Shown one piece after another: positions 17,278 to 29,623 of a DNA stretch of 38,448 nt. A model generated the notes under the pieces. That model saw only the letters and a program-made list of their open reading frames with translations, was not told where the DNA came from and did not search any database. The number at the start of each line of letters is the position of its first letter. The first letter of the stretch is position 1. The stretch is from an uncultured bacterium. Lineage in GTDB: Bacteria > Cyanobacteriota > Vampirovibrionia > Gastranaerophilales > Gastranaerophilaceae. The DNA lies in assembly GCA_949291445.1 (NCBI GenBank), contig CASEVT010000006.1:1-38448 (forward strand), given 5' to 3'. A program made the translations under genes and the position numbers.

Positions 17278-18315
17278 ATGCCGTCAGTCTCATCCGTTAG
17301 TGTATTGGGAAAATACCTTGACCAACCTGCATTGGTAAAAAAATTGTATGATAAAATGCCTGCAATCCTTACTGCTTCTGCTGCGGGATATGGTGCATAC
17401 GATACTTACAACTCGCCTGATGAAAATAAGAAGAAAAAAGCCGTGAAGAACGCATCAGTACTGGCATTTACCGTTGCGTCGGCACTTCTTGCCACAAGAG
17501 GGCTCAATATAAATGGCAAACAGGTTTTTGAAGGGCTTATTGAACTGCCTCATCTGCATGGGCATGATATTGAGAAAGTGCTTGCAAAGGTTACGGATGA
17601 AAAATCCCGCACTTTGATTGAAAAAGTTAAAAATAACCATATTTTAAAGTTTTCTGACGTCAGGTATTTAATGAATAATCTTAATAAGGAAATGAACGAT
17701 CCGCGGGCAATAAAAAATGTAATTCCGGATGCGCATAATCATGGACCGTTTGCGGAGTTGTTGAACCTTTCGGTGCTGGGTTTGGTGCCGGTAATCGGCG
17801 GTATTGCAGGCGGGGTTGTCGGCGATAAGCTCTGTAAAGAGGACTGGAAAAAACAAATTCCTAACAAGATAAAAGAAGGCTCTTATCAGTACCTTAACAA
17901 CATATTTTTGTGCAATGTCGGTGCAGGGTTGGGGGCGCTTGTGATGAATAAATTTAACGTCCAATCACGTGCCGCAAGGTTTGTAGCTATGTTAAGCGGA
18001 GTTGTCGGGGTAGGATTGGTCGCCGGTAGCACTATTGCCAATTTTGTCGGCAAAAATTATATTAACCCTCTCTTTGACAAATCGCAAAAACGTACGGCTA
18101 ACTTTAAAGACATGTTCAAAAACCTGAATAGCGAACGTCATCCTGAAGCTTTAGATTTGAGTTTGCATATTGATGATATCGCTTCGGTGGGTTTTGTTTC
18201 GGGATTGAAGTGGATAGGGCCCGTACTTCCGATGTTGTATTCCGTCTCCGGTTATCGTGCCGGAATTGGTTATCGTAACGGCAAATCGCTTAAAACCGAC
18301 GCAAAATCAAATTAA
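17278..18315 (+). CDS. Multi-pass membrane protein of unknown function
   Basis: A 345-aa protein I do not recognise. Hydrophobic, Gly-rich segments lie near residues 58-76 (NASVLAFTVASALLATRG), 160-185 (LLNLSVLGLVPVIGGIAGGV), 205-225 (FLCNVGAGLGALVMNKF) and 235-258 (AMLSGVVGVGLVAGSTIANF), with a last weaker one near 310-330. Between the first two is a polar stretch of about 80 residues. There is no catalytic motif. AAAGGGA precedes the ATG. The gene converges on the DUF4127 gene and their stop codons overlap by 4 nt (18312-18315). It reads like a lineage-restricted protein. No function is suggested by its neighbours. Confidence 0.8.
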   Translation: MPSVSSVSVLGKYLDQPALVKKLYDKMPAILTASAAGYGAYDTYNSPDENKKKKAVKNASVLAFTVASALLATRGLNINGKQVFEGLIELPHLHGHDIEKVLAKVTDEKSRTLIEKVKNNHILKFSDVRYLMNNLNKEMNDPRAIKNVIPDAHNHGPFAELLNLSVLGLVPVIGGIAGGVVGDKLCKEDWKKQIPNKIKEGSYQYLNNIFLCNVGAGLGALVMNKFNVQSRAARFVAMLSGVVGVGLVAGSTIANFVGKNYINPLFDKSQKRTANFKDMFKNLNSERHPEALDLSLHIDDIASVGFVSGLKWIGPVLPMLYSVSGYRAGIGYRNGKSLKTDAKSN

Positions 18316-19697
18316 TCGATATCTACCTCTATCTCAAAATACCGTCTCCACGGAAATTCGTAGGTGATATTCTGGTAATTTGTTTTAAAAACTTTATTCA
18401 CAAGCATTTCAAATGGTGAGATTGTATTTTTTAATTTGTCCAAATCAAGCGTTTTAGCGGTCATTTTTAAATATTTTCTTACATTTGCCTGATATGCCCA
18501 ATCATCAAGAAATCTGGTCAATTGGAGTTTTCTAAAAGCTTTGTCATTGTATTTTCTTGCAAAATATTTAACCATTGCTGCACAAATGGCACTTCCAAGC
18601 GTGTTACCCGTAGTATTCCATCCGGCATAGCCCAGAAATCTTCTTGATGTCAGGTCAAGTTCCATTAATTTTTCAACAAAATTGTTATCTGCACCGTTTG
18701 CATTTAATATATCGGCAGCAAAATACGGTTTATCCGGTGTAAACAGTTTACCCTTAAACCCTTCCGTTTCGACATCCATGACCAATTCGCCCTGATGTTT
18801 TTTAAAATTGTTAACAACCATTATAATATCGGCATTTTCTTCATTGCTCAAAACCCCACCTGCAAGCTCGATCTGTCCCTTAACCGATTCTGCAACCGTA
18901 ACATCCTCATATTTAGATATTTTATCCGTATAATCAGGATTCGTATATATTGGCGCAATTTTGTACTTCTTACCTGCGGTAATAGCTCGGCATAATAGCG
19001 ATAACGGTATTTCGTCCGCTCCGGTTTTTATCATTGCACTGAGGTTTCTTCTTTTTATCTGTTCTTGAAGATATTCTGCCTCTTGTACGTTAAGTCCGTA
19101 TTCGCCGGAATCATCTTTTGAGAATACTAATGTATCGATTACTCCTTCTTCCTGCCATTCCAGATATCTTATGTTCATATCAAAATTTCTTTTTCGTGTC
19201 AGGATGTAATCTTGAATTATTTCTGAAGGTACATCAGTGATCGCCACCCCGTCTTTATGCAAGTCGTATGAATATTTAAAAATGGCTTTTCCGTATGGAT
19301 TCCAGTAATCTTTTTCTTCTTCGTTAACATTGTTATTTGAGATTCGCATAATGCTTGAAAAAGCGTATATACGAGTTTTTTTCTCTTCAAGCATGTGACG
19401 AAATTTCAGCATTCGAAGGTAAACTTCCTTAAATATTTCATCACTTTTTCGAGAAGGAATAAGCCCTCCGTACGCCATTGTATCAAGTGAAATGATAATC
19501 GCTTCCGGATCCTTTATCCGTTCGAGCCAGTCATATATCCCGAACATATCAGCCGGATTCTTCAAATCACCAAGCAATTGCCTTTTCGGTAACAACAACT
19601 CAATGCTTTCATCCATCTGTGCAATCTGTTTTGGCAAATCGTAACACACAGGGCGGTTGTCTATCGGTATAAAAACTATTTTGCGTTTTACCGGCAA
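18312..19697 (-). CDS. DUF4127 family protein
   Basis: A 461-aa protein matching the DUF4127 family. The opening is KIVFIPIDNRPVCYDLPKQI, followed by LLPKRQLLGD, AIIISLDTMAYGGLIPSR, FSSIMRISNNNVNEEEKDYW and LGYAGWNTTGNTLGSAICAA. The function is unknown; the conserved Asp, Arg and Asn motifs suggest an enzyme. It has no signal peptide and is probably cytoplasmic. The start is a TTG at 19697, supported by AAGGAG six bases upstream. It lies 106 nt after ilvN in the same direction with no clear terminator between, so read-through from the ilv genes is possible. The 3' end overlaps the convergent membrane-protein gene. Confidence 0.88.
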   Translation of the reverse strand: MPVKRKIVFIPIDNRPVCYDLPKQIAQMDESIELLLPKRQLLGDLKNPADMFGIYDWLERIKDPEAIIISLDTMAYGGLIPSRKSDEIFKEVYLRMLKFRHMLEEKKTRIYAFSSIMRISNNNVNEEEKDYWNPYGKAIFKYSYDLHKDGVAITDVPSEIIQDYILTRKRNFDMNIRYLEWQEEGVIDTLVFSKDDSGEYGLNVQEAEYLQEQIKRRNLSAMIKTGADEIPLSLLCRAITAGKKYKIAPIYTNPDYTDKISKYEDVTVAESVKGQIELAGGVLSNEENADIIMVVNNFKKHQGELVMDVETEGFKGKLFTPDKPYFAADILNANGADNNFVEKLMELDLTSRRFLGYAGWNTTGNTLGSAICAAMVKYFARKYNDKAFRKLQLTRFLDDWAYQANVRKYLKMTAKTLDLDKLKNTISPFEMLVNKVFKTNYQNITYEFPWRRYFEIEVDID

Positions 19698-25129: not shown

Positions 25130-27742
25130 TTAGAATCCTTTTTTTAACGTCGTTTCCGGTGCTACTATTGCAAACACGTAGGGTGTGCTGAAGTATTTAT
25201 TTGCTATTCTTATTACATCGCTTGCGCTGACCGATTCTACCAGTTTTGGGAATTCATCTATGTATTCAAATCCTCTTCCTGATGCTTCAAATACCCCCAA
25301 TGTAGCGGCTTTTTCTGCGTTAGTTTCTTGTGCCAGTATAAAATTGCCAAGAATTTTGTCCTTTGCTTCTTTAAGTTCCTTATCTGATACAAATTCTTTT
25401 TTCAGGATATCTATTTCTTTTAGCAATTCTTTTTTTGAATGAGCTGCTGTTTGGGGATTCGTTCCTATATATACCGCAAAGAATCCTTTATTTACATTTC
25501 CTGCATAGCTTGAGCCTACCTGATATGCAAGTCCTTGTTCATCGCGTAAGTTATTGAACAATCTCGAGCTCATGCCGGAGCCCAGAAGGGCATCTATTAT
25601 TTGTAATACTACCGCATCTTTTTTGTTCGTAATTCCATCTGTCATCCAGCCCAATATTAGCCATGATGCTGAAACATCTTTTGCTGTTTTTATTGTTTTG
25701 GTTGTTTCCAGCGGTTTGAATATGTTTTTGTAGTTTTCATAATTGAACTGTTCTCCCGTTTTGCAGTTTAATAAATTTGAGAAATATTTTATCATTTCTT
25801 CGTCATCAACATTGCCGTTTATTGATATTACTACGTTTTGGGGATAAAAAATCTTGTTATAGTAATCTGTTATATCTGTTTTATTTATTGTGGGTAAGCT
25901 TTTTTCAAGTATTTTTCCGGTTATTCCGTAGGGGGTGTTTTTCCATATTTCCGTTCTGAATTCTTCCAATGCTATGTTAAACGGGTTGTCTCGCATTTGT
26001 CGGATTGCATAGATTTTTTCGGATTTTATTTTTTCTATCTCTTGCGGATCGAATGAGGCGTTGTTTATCATTTCATTCAGGATATCCATTGTTAGCGGCA
26101 GATCGTTTTTGGTCGTTTTTACCGAGACTGAAAAATAATCGCCTCCGGCTGTCGGCACAATTTTTATTCCGTTTTGTTCCATTATTTGTGACAGGTCTAT
26201 TGCTGAATATTTTTTTGTTCCTTTTAGCATTCCCGATGCTGTCATGGATGCGGTTCCTGCTTTGTTTTCCAAATATGTTCCGCCTTTTGCGTATATTTGA
26301 ATTGCTATTATATCATTCAATTTATTATGATTTATCAGGAGCGTCGATTTGTTCGGCAATTCGTATTCGGTTATGTTTTTGTATTGTTTTATAAGCTTTG
26401 TGTCTTTCAATTTTACGTTGCTTATTTTTTTTGTGTTTTCGTCTTTATCTGTTTGCGGCAAAAGTATCGATACAACTGATGTTTGCGGGTTTAAGTATTT
26501 TTTTGCAACATTTATTATATCGTTTTTGCTAACCTTTTTTATATTTTTAATATAGTTATCGTAAAACTGGGGGTTATTATAGATCAGGGTTGTATATCCT
26601 AATTCATTGGCTATATTTGCCGTTGATTCCCGAGCGTAGAATGTATCCCGTTCTATTATGTTTTTCGCTGTAGTTATATCTTGCTCATCGAAGCTTCCGT
26701 TTCTGATTTTTTCTATTTCGTAAAAAATTGAGTTTTCCAATTTTTCTAAATTTTGCGGAACAAAATTTGCTTGAATAAGAAAAAGGCTATCGTCCTTCAT
26801 TGACGAATGTCCTGCTGATATGCTAAATGCAAGCTGTTTCTGTTCTTTTATTGATTGATACAACTTCGATGAGCGTCCGTCACCGAGCATTACTCCCAAT
26901 ACGTCTAACGCATACATGTCTTTTTGGTTTTCGGCATTTACTCCTCTGAAGCCTATTAGCAAATATCCTGTTTTGATTTTGTCGTGGGCTATTACTTTTT
27001 CTTGGTGGGTTATTTGTTTATCTGTTTTGTAGTTTGGTAATTTCGATTTTGATGCGGTTTTTTCACCAAATTCTTTCTTTATCAGTTCAATTGCTTCGTT
27101 TGTGTTTATGTCTCCTACTATTACCGTTATCATGTTTGATGGATTGTACCATTTGTTATAAAAATCCAGTATTTCCTCTCTGGTTATGTTTTCTATTATC
27201 GATTTTTTGCCTATTACTTGACGTTTATAGGGATGGATTGTGTAAAACTTTTCATTCATGTTTTGAAAAAGTTTTGTTTGCGGTTGATCATCGTTTTTGG
27301 CTATTTCTTCTATTACTACTTTTCGCTCTTTCTCCAGTTCTTTTCTCGGTATTTGCGGATGTAACAGCATATCAGAATGTAATTCCAGCGCTGTTTTAAA
27401 ATCCCTTGAGGGGATTGTTATGTAGTAGTGGGTAAAGTCTTTGCTGGTTGCGGCATTTGTTATTGCGCCTTTGGATTCCAGAATCTTGTCAAACTCGCCT
27501 GTCGGATATTTTTGGGTCCCTTTGAAAAACAAGTGCTCCAAAAAATGTGCTACCCCGTTGTTTTTATCGTTTTCATTTATTGAGCCGGTTTTTATCCAGG
27601 TATCTATTGTTACTATCGGGTTGTCGTGGACTTCTTTTATTATTACCGTTTGTCCGTTATCCAGTTTGAATGTTTCATAATCTTGTGCGTATACTGCCGC
27701 TCCCATAATTATTATGGTTAGCATTATTATTATTTTCTTCAT
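25130..27742 (-). CDS. Secreted tandem M16-family zinc peptidase
   Basis: An 870-aa protein with a signal peptide (MKKIIIMLTIIIMGAAVYAQ) and two M16 halves. The N-terminal half is catalytic: inverted zinc motif HFLEH at residues 66-70, with the downstream Glu in RKVVIEEIAKNDDQP. The C-terminal half (from about 440) has GTASMTASGMLKGT at the matching place, without HxxEH, so it is the usual inactive partner that closes over the peptide. It also keeps LFNNLRDEQGLAYQVGSSY, a substrate-contact motif. It probably acts in the periplasm on peptides or damaged proteins. GAGGG lies eight bases before the ATG. The gene appears monocistronic. Confidence 0.93.
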   Translation of the reverse strand: MKKIIIMLTIIIMGAAVYAQDYETFKLDNGQTVIIKEVHDNPIVTIDTWIKTGSINENDKNNGVAHFLEHLFFKGTQKYPTGEFDKILESKGAITNAATSKDFTHYYITIPSRDFKTALELHSDMLLHPQIPRKELEKERKVVIEEIAKNDDQPQTKLFQNMNEKFYTIHPYKRQVIGKKSIIENITREEILDFYNKWYNPSNMITVIVGDINTNEAIELIKKEFGEKTASKSKLPNYKTDKQITHQEKVIAHDKIKTGYLLIGFRGVNAENQKDMYALDVLGVMLGDGRSSKLYQSIKEQKQLAFSISAGHSSMKDDSLFLIQANFVPQNLEKLENSIFYEIEKIRNGSFDEQDITTAKNIIERDTFYARESTANIANELGYTTLIYNNPQFYDNYIKNIKKVSKNDIINVAKKYLNPQTSVVSILLPQTDKDENTKKISNVKLKDTKLIKQYKNITEYELPNKSTLLINHNKLNDIIAIQIYAKGGTYLENKAGTASMTASGMLKGTKKYSAIDLSQIMEQNGIKIVPTAGGDYFSVSVKTTKNDLPLTMDILNEMINNASFDPQEIEKIKSEKIYAIRQMRDNPFNIALEEFRTEIWKNTPYGITGKILEKSLPTINKTDITDYYNKIFYPQNVVISINGNVDDEEMIKYFSNLLNCKTGEQFNYENYKNIFKPLETTKTIKTAKDVSASWLILGWMTDGITNKKDAVVLQIIDALLGSGMSSRLFNNLRDEQGLAYQVGSSYAGNVNKGFFAVYIGTNPQTAAHSKKELLKEIDILKKEFVSDKELKEAKDKILGNFILAQETNAEKAATLGVFEASGRGFEYIDEFPKLVESVSASDVIRIANKYFSTPYVFAIVAPETTLKKGF

Positions 27743-27842: not shown

Positions 27843-29450
27843 TTAATTTTCTTTAATTATTGCTTGCAAATCTTTTTTAGGGTTTTTCCCTATTTGTTTA
27901 AATCCGAATTTCTCTGATAAAAATTGGATCATATTCGGGGTTATTATATTTGATGAACATTCCGGCAGATATATGTTTTTCAAACCTATTTGCCGTAAAT
28001 TAAATAAATGTGAGATTGTATGCAAGTTGCACTGGGTCATGAATAATGAGATTGAAAATTTCTTTACGTCTATCTCGTTTTTTATTTTTTCAAGTATTTT
28101 GTATATTAGCGATGTATTAAAATATGAATCAAGGTGAAAAACATTTTTTCGATCACTGCTTACAGCTGTTGAGATTACAAAACAGTCGTCCGGTATGTTT
28201 TTTACAAGTTCGTCAAAATAATTTTGTGAAAATAAGGAGTGATTTATCAGACCTATTATAAAAAGTTGTTTTATTTTTCCTGCTTTTATTCCCTCAATCG
28301 TCTCTTCTACTTTATCCATCACGGATTTTTCATCGTATCCTACCAGAACTGGTTTAGTTGATTTTGAATTTTTTTCAAATCCTTTTGCCTCTTTTGCTGC
28401 ATCAAGAAGCGGCGTGAAATCGTTGTTCTCTATTTTTCTCATGCCTTTACCGGATATGTAATTCGTTGTAAATATCCTTCCGCGAAATAGTCGTTCAAAT
28501 TTGTGTTGTGCATTTTGGGTAATCAAGATTGCACCTTTAAAAAGTGAAAAATCCATCTCGAAATTGTCCGGTGATTTTTGAAAATGTCCAACAAGATTTT
28601 TGTAATCTGAAAACTTTGGATATGCATGTGCAACTATCATTCCGTTGTGCGTGTAGATGTTTATTTCTTCCTCTTTTGACGCTTCAAGTAACTTTTCAAA
28701 ATCACTCAAATTTTGACCCGTAACCAGTATTGCCGGTCCTTTTTTGATCTCGGTTGATACCTCTTTGGGTCTGATTTTTCCAAAGTATTCTTCTTTCGCA
28801 GTATGCATTTTTCTGTGTATTTCTAAATTTACCTTTGCAAATTCGTTTATTTTTCTCGTTAATTTTGCTTCGTTAAACGTTGTAAAATTTAGACTGTTAA
28901 AAAATTTCAAAATTGCATTTGACTCACTTCCGCATTCAACTCCGTATTCTTCTAATTCCAATAACCTTACACTTGCACTTTTTAAAAGTTGCAGGATTAT
29001 TTCTGTCAGGTTTTTTGTTTCTTGGGACATTGATTTGTTTTTTAATATTGCCTGACGCTCTCCTTGGTTTACCATATTCGAAAAATCAAAATTGTCGAAT
29101 TTTATTGATGAATGCAAAATTTGGCAATCAAGATTCTTCTCTTCGCATATTTTTATAAAATATTTTTCAACCTCTTTTTTTGTGTTGTCTATCTCTCTTA
29201 ACAACTTCTCAAATTCATTTCGATTGAATTCGTAACCTATAATAATCAATGACAAATATTGTATTATCTTCTTTCTCAACGGCTTGTTTTCATAACCCAA
29301 TTCCATCAGTTTTACCATGTAATATGTGACTTGCTTCAATTCGTAAAGCAACACTTCTATAAGTGAATACAAAATTGGATCTATGCTGCAATTCCCTTGG
29401 ATTGCGCAATTGTTGAATCCGACATTTTCATCAGCGTAATAGTTAAACAT
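27843..29450 (-). CDS. Hybrid-cluster-protein (Hcp) homologue lacking the metal-ligand residues
   Basis: The overall sequence aligns with Hcp (hydroxylamine reductase/NO reductase) from the N terminus to the end. Clear matches include GPAILVTGQNLSDFEKLLEAS, IYTHNGMIVAHAYPKFSDYKNLVGHF, the PDDCFVISTA strand and the IGLKNIYLPE/NMIQFLSEKFG C terminus. The ligands are gone, however. GHD is GQN, HGEM is HNGM, the TxNC cysteine is an Ala (ITQNAQ), GGCDG is GLINH, the ACGKYRF cysteine is Val (STAVSSDR), the GQCND segment is deleted, and the SWxEQK pair is lost. The first two N-terminal Fe-S cysteines are replaced (MFNYYAD for MFCxQCE). So it is probably not a reductase. The ATG at 29450 matches the family N terminus and has GGGA six bases upstream. 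An upstream in-frame GTG at 29495 is possible. Confidence 0.85.
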   Translation of the reverse strand: MFNYYADENVGFNNCAIQGNCSIDPILYSLIEVLLYELKQVTYYMVKLMELGYENKPLRKKIIQYLSLIIIGYEFNRNEFEKLLREIDNTKKEVEKYFIKICEEKNLDCQILHSSIKFDNFDFSNMVNQGERQAILKNKSMSQETKNLTEIILQLLKSASVRLLELEEYGVECGSESNAILKFFNSLNFTTFNEAKLTRKINEFAKVNLEIHRKMHTAKEEYFGKIRPKEVSTEIKKGPAILVTGQNLSDFEKLLEASKEEEINIYTHNGMIVAHAYPKFSDYKNLVGHFQKSPDNFEMDFSLFKGAILITQNAQHKFERLFRGRIFTTNYISGKGMRKIENNDFTPLLDAAKEAKGFEKNSKSTKPVLVGYDEKSVMDKVEETIEGIKAGKIKQLFIIGLINHSLFSQNYFDELVKNIPDDCFVISTAVSSDRKNVFHLDSYFNTSLIYKILEKIKNEIDVKKFSISLFMTQCNLHTISHLFNLRQIGLKNIYLPECSSNIITPNMIQFLSEKFGFKQIGKNPKKDLQAIIKEN

Positions 29451-29623
29451 AATTTTCCCAAATCTAGCCGTCAGCTCTTTTTTATTAATTGGCACTTATT
29501 ATTTTATACTTTCGTGCTGCTGCTTTCATTGGTTATAATGGCTAGTTCGGTTTCTATATTAAATTCTTGAATTTTTTTAATTTCAATTTTAAATAATACA
29601 AAAAGAATTTACGTCTGCACTCT

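Follow-up and report, generated by a model that had tools for sequence, protein, structure and literature searches.

Loss of cluster ligands from a conserved hybrid cluster protein homologue of Gastranaerophilaceae, and its possible turn to thiol chemistry

We show here, by comparison of aligned proteins, that three Gastranaerophilales families have hybrid cluster proteins (Hcps) from which metal ligands have been lost, and that the loss is nearly complete in Gastranaerophilaceae. We further propose, tentatively and at somewhat short of an even chance, that an Fe–S–O enzyme became, in this lineage, a thiol/disulphide enzyme or sensor that depends on glutaredoxin and acts in the emptied pocket, that the conversion passed through intermediates surviving in sister families, and that it is family-wide.

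The gene described here lies on the reverse strand of the window, by which we mean the whole 38,448 nucleotide stretch that was analysed (Table 1). The open reading frame reaches back to an in-frame GTG at 29495, giving 550 residues, and the start of the relatives coincides with the ATG at 29450. Contig C6, which is the window, belongs to a genome (G000) of 1.78 Mb and 95% completeness, in which a scan found no Prismane protein other than the one under study. A protein-level scan of genome contigs gave a single relative, and the closest one with a name is a Candidatus Gastranaerophilales MAG. An Rfam scan and a tRNA scan gave no match. Two other proteins are encoded near the gene, one of 461 aa with a DUF4127 match (18312–19697) and one of 870 aa that resembles a two-lobed M16 peptidase (25130–27742); a homologue of the latter also adjoins the ligand-less gene in genomes G034 and G007.

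Assignment of the protein to the Hcp family, made in the initial annotation, is borne out by Pfam, NCBIfam and PDB matches. The Pfam Prismane profile matched with 133 bits (cut-off 27), and the NCBIfam hydroxylamine reductase profile covered residues 16–548 of the 550-aa open reading frame (2.9e-72). The latter score of 244 bits falls short of the equivalog cut-off of 367, and on these profile scores the protein is homologous to the hydroxylamine reductase family yet below the equivalog level. Sequence matches in the PDB were Hcps without exception. Carbon monoxide dehydrogenase (CODH) gave no better match than Hcp: the best matches were all Hcps, and CODHs reached a TM-score of only about 0.48.

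The protein was aligned with its relatives in 59 genomes, among them 26 canonical Hcps whose CCCC/H/E/C/C/C/C/E/K set is complete. The seven hybrid-cluster ligands, His244, Glu268, Cys312, Cys406, Cys434, Cys459 and Glu494 in D. vulgaris numbering, were placed on the alignment by means of conserved motifs. None of them is retained in the window protein: six positions are substituted (Table 1), and Cys459 falls inside a deletion downstream of V430. The N-terminal four-cysteine [4Fe-4S]/[2Fe-2S] set is incomplete and reads NACC, with Cys3 and Cys6 of D. vulgaris Hcp replaced by N3 and A6, and Cys15 and Cys21 kept. Across the 119 proteins of the ligand-less clade, C15 and C21 are each present in 112 and N3 in 101, and position 475 is D or N in 105. 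When five of the hybrid ligands were scored in these relatives, none was kept in 86, one in 29 and two in four. On these alignments the hybrid cluster has almost certainly been lost from the ligand-less Hcps. The ligand-less protein is, as judged from its sequence, a variant within the Hcp fold family and not a functional Hcp; we do not file it as the latter because the defining ligands were looked for and are missing. Each substitution, and the deletion, had been called correctly in the initial annotation. Its broader statement that the cluster ligands were lost holds for the hybrid cluster and needs qualifying elsewhere, since C15 and C21 stay, a point left implicit there, and three new conserved cysteines have appeared. 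One of them, C474, is immediately beside the old Glu494 position, so that alternative cysteines at the ligand sites, which the annotation had named as a refutation, are found in part.

Table 1. Positions in the window of the ligand-less Hcp homologue gene and of the codons discussed in the text
Feature	Position	Strand	Remark
Ligand-less Hcp homologue gene	27843..29450	(-)	535 aa from ATG 29450
C15 (29408-29406) and C21 (29390-29388)	29388..29408	(-)	cysteines left from the old N-terminal [4Fe-4S] motif
C102, new near-invariant cysteine	29145..29147	(-)	111/119; unconserved in the aligned canonical Hcps
Q246 at ligand His244 position	28713..28715	(-)	alignment
G270 at ligand Glu268 position	28641..28643	(-)	alignment
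A314 at ligand Cys312 position	28509..28511	(-)	alignment
I402 at persulphide ligand Cys406 position	28245..28247	(-)	Cys in region in 1/119
V430 at ligand Cys434 position	28161..28163	(-)	alignment
C474, near-invariant, newly gained, immediately ahead of the old Glu494 position	28029..28031	(-)	116/119
N475 (28028-28026) and H477 (28022-28020) at Glu494/Lys496 positions	28020..28028	(-)	alignment
C498, new near-invariant cysteine	27957..27959	(-)	116/119

The Hcp fold is confidently predicted to be kept, as had been supposed. An AlphaFold2 (AF2) model built with 43 sequences had a pLDDT of 88.1 and a pTM of 0.88, and Foldseek placed D. vulgaris Hcp (1e1d) first, with a TM-score of 0.80 over the full length, followed by other Hcps and then by CODHs. 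The model is poor only at residues 1–12 and 16–20, where pLDDT is below 50. This resembles the C67Y variant of a class III Hcp, in which the N-terminal region becomes disordered without one [4Fe-4S] ligand and the rest is kept (PMC10502027).

In an alignment-based search, matches were found in 227 of the 239 genomes of Gastranaerophilaceae (our name for the window's GTDB-style family, f1), the figure being an upper bound, as a few genomes such as G002 carry a canonical Hcp alone; among good-quality genomes the search matched 193 of 197. Clade counts given here rest instead on the 119 ligand-less proteins that were aligned directly. All 119 are intact and all come from Gastranaerophilaceae, and the 36 that were sampled first form one clade with support of 100/100. 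In a phylum-wide sample we found no member of this clade outside the family, other proteins scoring below 300 bits as against about 449 and above for undoubted clade members. Among unsaturated pairs of ligand-less proteins dN/dS was 0.01–0.27, and purifying selection on them has continued. A decaying or misassembled Hcp might be suspected in a small AT-rich genome known from a MAG, and we regard this as very improbable: it is refuted by the 119 intact homologues, the low dN/dS, the new invariant residues and the single clade. The earlier view of an intact frame that is under selection and not in decay is thus upheld.

By a rough count, about a third of Gastranaerophilaceae carry a separate, shorter canonical Hcp, so that Hcp catalysis, where present, would be carried out by another gene. 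A heteromer with canonical Hcp is disfavoured as a general role, because G000 and many relatives have no canonical Hcp. Three ligand-less copies lie in tandem in G013 (L033 4611–9482) and two in G017 (L035 417–3685); each is about 30–35% identical to the window protein, and they sit on different branches of the tree, which implies old duplications.

In a tree with cyanobacterial Hcps as the outgroup, and with branches long enough that attraction is possible, two f6 proteins and three f7 proteins joined the f1 ligand-less Hcps in a single clade (100/100) that lies within the canonical full-length Hcps of families f2–f4 and f8. These eroded sister-family Hcps (f7: L031 in G049, L067 in G046 and L069 in G041; f6: L048 in G045 and L065 in G048) have intermediate sets of ligands. 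In L031 the four N-terminal cysteines are all present, together with Glu268, Cys312 and Cys406, and L067 and L069 have fewer ligands. From these sequences it looks as though the ligands were eroded stepwise across the sister families.

Gene neighbourhoods bear on the ancestry of the locus. In many genera the ligand-less gene faces rpsL-rpsG in convergent orientation and is flanked on its other side by a UDP-GlcNAc 2-epimerase gene (L109, L110, L111, L112, L115, L117, L119, L120 and others), and at most of these loci a glutaredoxin open reading frame sits in between. The ligand-less gene of G018 is near rpoB-rpoC1-rpoC2, and in f7 the partly eroded copies come after rpoC2. We set aside a functional operon with the ribosomal or RNA-polymerase genes, and take these neighbourhoods as a sign of locus ancestry. 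In this lineage RNA polymerase β' is split into rpoC1 and rpoC2 (L067:8162–13421), as in cyanobacteria, and rpoC2 of L067 has weak peptidase M23 and biotin-lipoyl matches mid-protein. The Hcp-like gene of f6 is directly preceded, on its upstream side, by one for a protein of 450–516 aa with glycine-rich stretches (L048:8686–10233, L065:4648–6003); a profile search for Hcp homology in it gave no match, nor did a Pfam scan of the L048 copy.

Residues that are near-invariant and specific to the ligand-less clade include N3, C102, N188, D300, R323-G324, C474 and C498. The new cysteines are conserved at 93–97% in a set of proteins whose identity is often no more than about 30%. Of the 119 proteins, 116 have both C474 and C498, three have neither and none has just one of the two; on the tree the joint losses amount to about two independent events. 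In the AF2 secondary structure C474 comes shortly after strand 467–470 and C498 shortly after strand 492–495 of the same domain. We infer that both sit at the edge of the pocket that once held the cluster, because the old Cys406 and Cys434 ligands likewise follow strands of this domain (395–399 and 423–427). C15 and C21 are usually lost together; five of the 119 proteins lack the pair and keep C102, C474 and C498.

A string that recurs upstream of the ligand-less genes was traced to the 3' end of a small glutaredoxin-like open reading frame. The enriched 8-mers belong to this 3' end, and upstream palindromes or regulator sites were rejected for this reason. The glutaredoxin-like protein has about 70–120 residues and a CPYC, CPFC or CPYS motif, and its gene runs in the same direction as the ligand-less open frame, usually 1–11 nt from it (48 nt in one case). 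For the non-canonical genes, adjacency was counted at the 72 loci with at least 300 nt of upstream sequence. A glutaredoxin adjoins 31 of the 67 ligand-less genes among them, none of the five partly eroded ones and none of 38 canonical Hcp genes. Two subfamilies are represented: 28 of the adjacent proteins are of GST_N_3/glutaredoxin type and three of GrxC type. The latter (classical Pfam Glutaredoxin, 58–67 bits) occur in G020, G033 and G010, which fall on the same side of the tree as the window protein. Such a gene is absent beside the window's own copy and those of its closest relatives (g1, g33 and g6), and the two glutaredoxins of G000 are encoded on other contigs than the ligand-less gene. 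The adjacency stems from few evolutionary events, perhaps two.

Gastranaerophilaceae genomes have only one or two PF00462 glutaredoxins each. In 13 f1 genomes one of these adjoins the ligand-less gene, and in most of them (G003, G008, G010, G011, G016, G020, G021, G028 and G033) it is the sole one found. Homologues of GshA and GshB are present in most of the sampled genomes and are encoded by neighbouring genes on C116 in G000, so that glutathione is probably made there.

The initial annotation favoured a non-redox role. The fixed cysteines C102, C474 and C498 and the frequent glutaredoxin neighbour point instead to thiol redox chemistry, and we give about an even chance to the ligand-less protein being a neofunctionalised, metal-free (or remodelled) Hcp that works through thiols with glutaredoxin and glutathione. 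This is the reading that we consider best supported, because the paired pocket cysteines and the adjacency to two glutaredoxin subfamilies agree. Without the hybrid Fe–S–O cluster, reduction of NO or hydroxylamine would be impossible. The loop cysteines C474 and C498 at the pocket rim would form a redox-active pair, as disulphide and dithiol or in S-glutathionylated form, that is reduced by glutaredoxin and glutathione, and C15/C21 together with C102 might form another site, for thiol chemistry or for metal. Such a protein could then be a glutaredoxin-dependent reductase of a small molecule admitted through the old gas channel, or a thiol sensor of redox or nitrosative state that docks on other proteins; we prefer neither option. 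Against thiol chemistry with glutaredoxin stand the CPYS motif, in place of CPYC, of some adjacent glutaredoxins, the missing neighbour of the window copy and the perhaps only two origins of the adjacency, the small number of independent joint losses of C474 and C498, and the capacity of conserved cysteines to bind Zn or an Fe-S cluster instead.

The last of these objections leads to a remodelled metal site, in which C15, C21 and C102, or C474, C498 and D/N475, or all of these, bind Fe, Zn or an Fe-S cluster of a simpler kind, with glutaredoxin delivering or exchanging a [2Fe-2S] cluster. Members of the glutaredoxin family can carry [2Fe-2S], and the five conserved cysteines and the frequent D or N at the old Glu494 position would suit such a site. 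However, the adjacent glutaredoxins are of CPYC, CPFC or CPYS type and not CGFS, the usual type for cluster transfer; the five proteins that lack C15/C21 and keep the other three cysteines imply that not all belong to one site; and the N-terminus is weakly predicted, as in the class III variant described above. We consider a remodelled metal site rather unlikely. A redox-silent pseudoenzyme, serving as a scaffold or regulator through the Hcp surface, for example with protein partners like those of S-nitrosylating Hcp, would have cysteines that are structural and a glutaredoxin neighbour that is incidental. It would account for the loss of all catalytic ligands with fold and selection kept, and for the many residues that are invariant and particular to the clade but have no evident chemistry (N3, N188, D300, R323 and G324, for example). 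We judge it unlikely nevertheless, in view of the difference in adjacency between ligand-less and canonical genes, the recurrence of that adjacency with two glutaredoxin subfamilies and the pairing of cysteines at the old pocket; as a partner of canonical Hcp, moreover, it would have none to act on in G000 and in many relatives.

Class I Hcps (Desulfovibrio 1e1d/1gn9, Methanothermococcus 8cnr) and class II Hcps (E. coli 7de4) are homologous to the window protein over the full length and alike in predicted fold; in the tree, the ligand-less Hcps and their eroded relatives fall in the Gastranaerophilales branch of the canonical full-length Hcps. The window protein differs from these classes in that the hybrid-cluster ligands are all gone, two of the four [4Fe-4S] ligands remain and three cysteines are new, and many of its ligand-less relatives differ also in their glutaredoxin neighbour. 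Class III Hcp of Methanothermobacter (7e0l) is alike in the C-terminal domains (TM-score 0.61–0.62), but this class is shorter by about 100 residues in the middle region (PMC10502027), and the window protein is full length. The Ni,Fe-CODHs, including the non-CO-oxidising clade D CODH-V, are only distantly related in fold. CODH-V sets a precedent for repurposing within the fold, yet it keeps a morphing metal cluster (PMC13056359), whereas the ligands of the window protein are gone. A likeness to glutaredoxin-dependent thiol proteins would lie in the adjacency seen in many relatives, though not in the window's own genome, and in the paired-cysteine site.

A 2026 survey sorted all of its 1,476 HCP genes into classes I–III. 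The literature that we searched, which covered few subscription papers, yielded no described Hcp without its ligands; nor did it yield a glutaredoxin-dependent enzyme with an Hcp fold, or any work joining Hcp with Melainabacteria, pseudoenzymes or the Gastranaerophilales lineage. Judged by title and abstract, publications that mention both Hcp and glutaredoxin deal with general stress responses or Fe-S assembly.

A ligand-less Hcp that is under selection throughout a family, together with its intermediates, would offer a rare readable case of the stepwise dismantling of a complex metallocofactor in living lineages. Such proteins allow the role of the Hcp fold to be told apart from that of the cluster, and they suggest that annotation of the ligand-less proteins of Gastranaerophilales as 'hydroxylamine reductase' would be wrong. 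Given the link to glutaredoxin, two small genes in E. coli would suffice for a direct test of function. If the proposal is true, a change from metal to thiol chemistry on one fold would have become fixed across a bacterial family.
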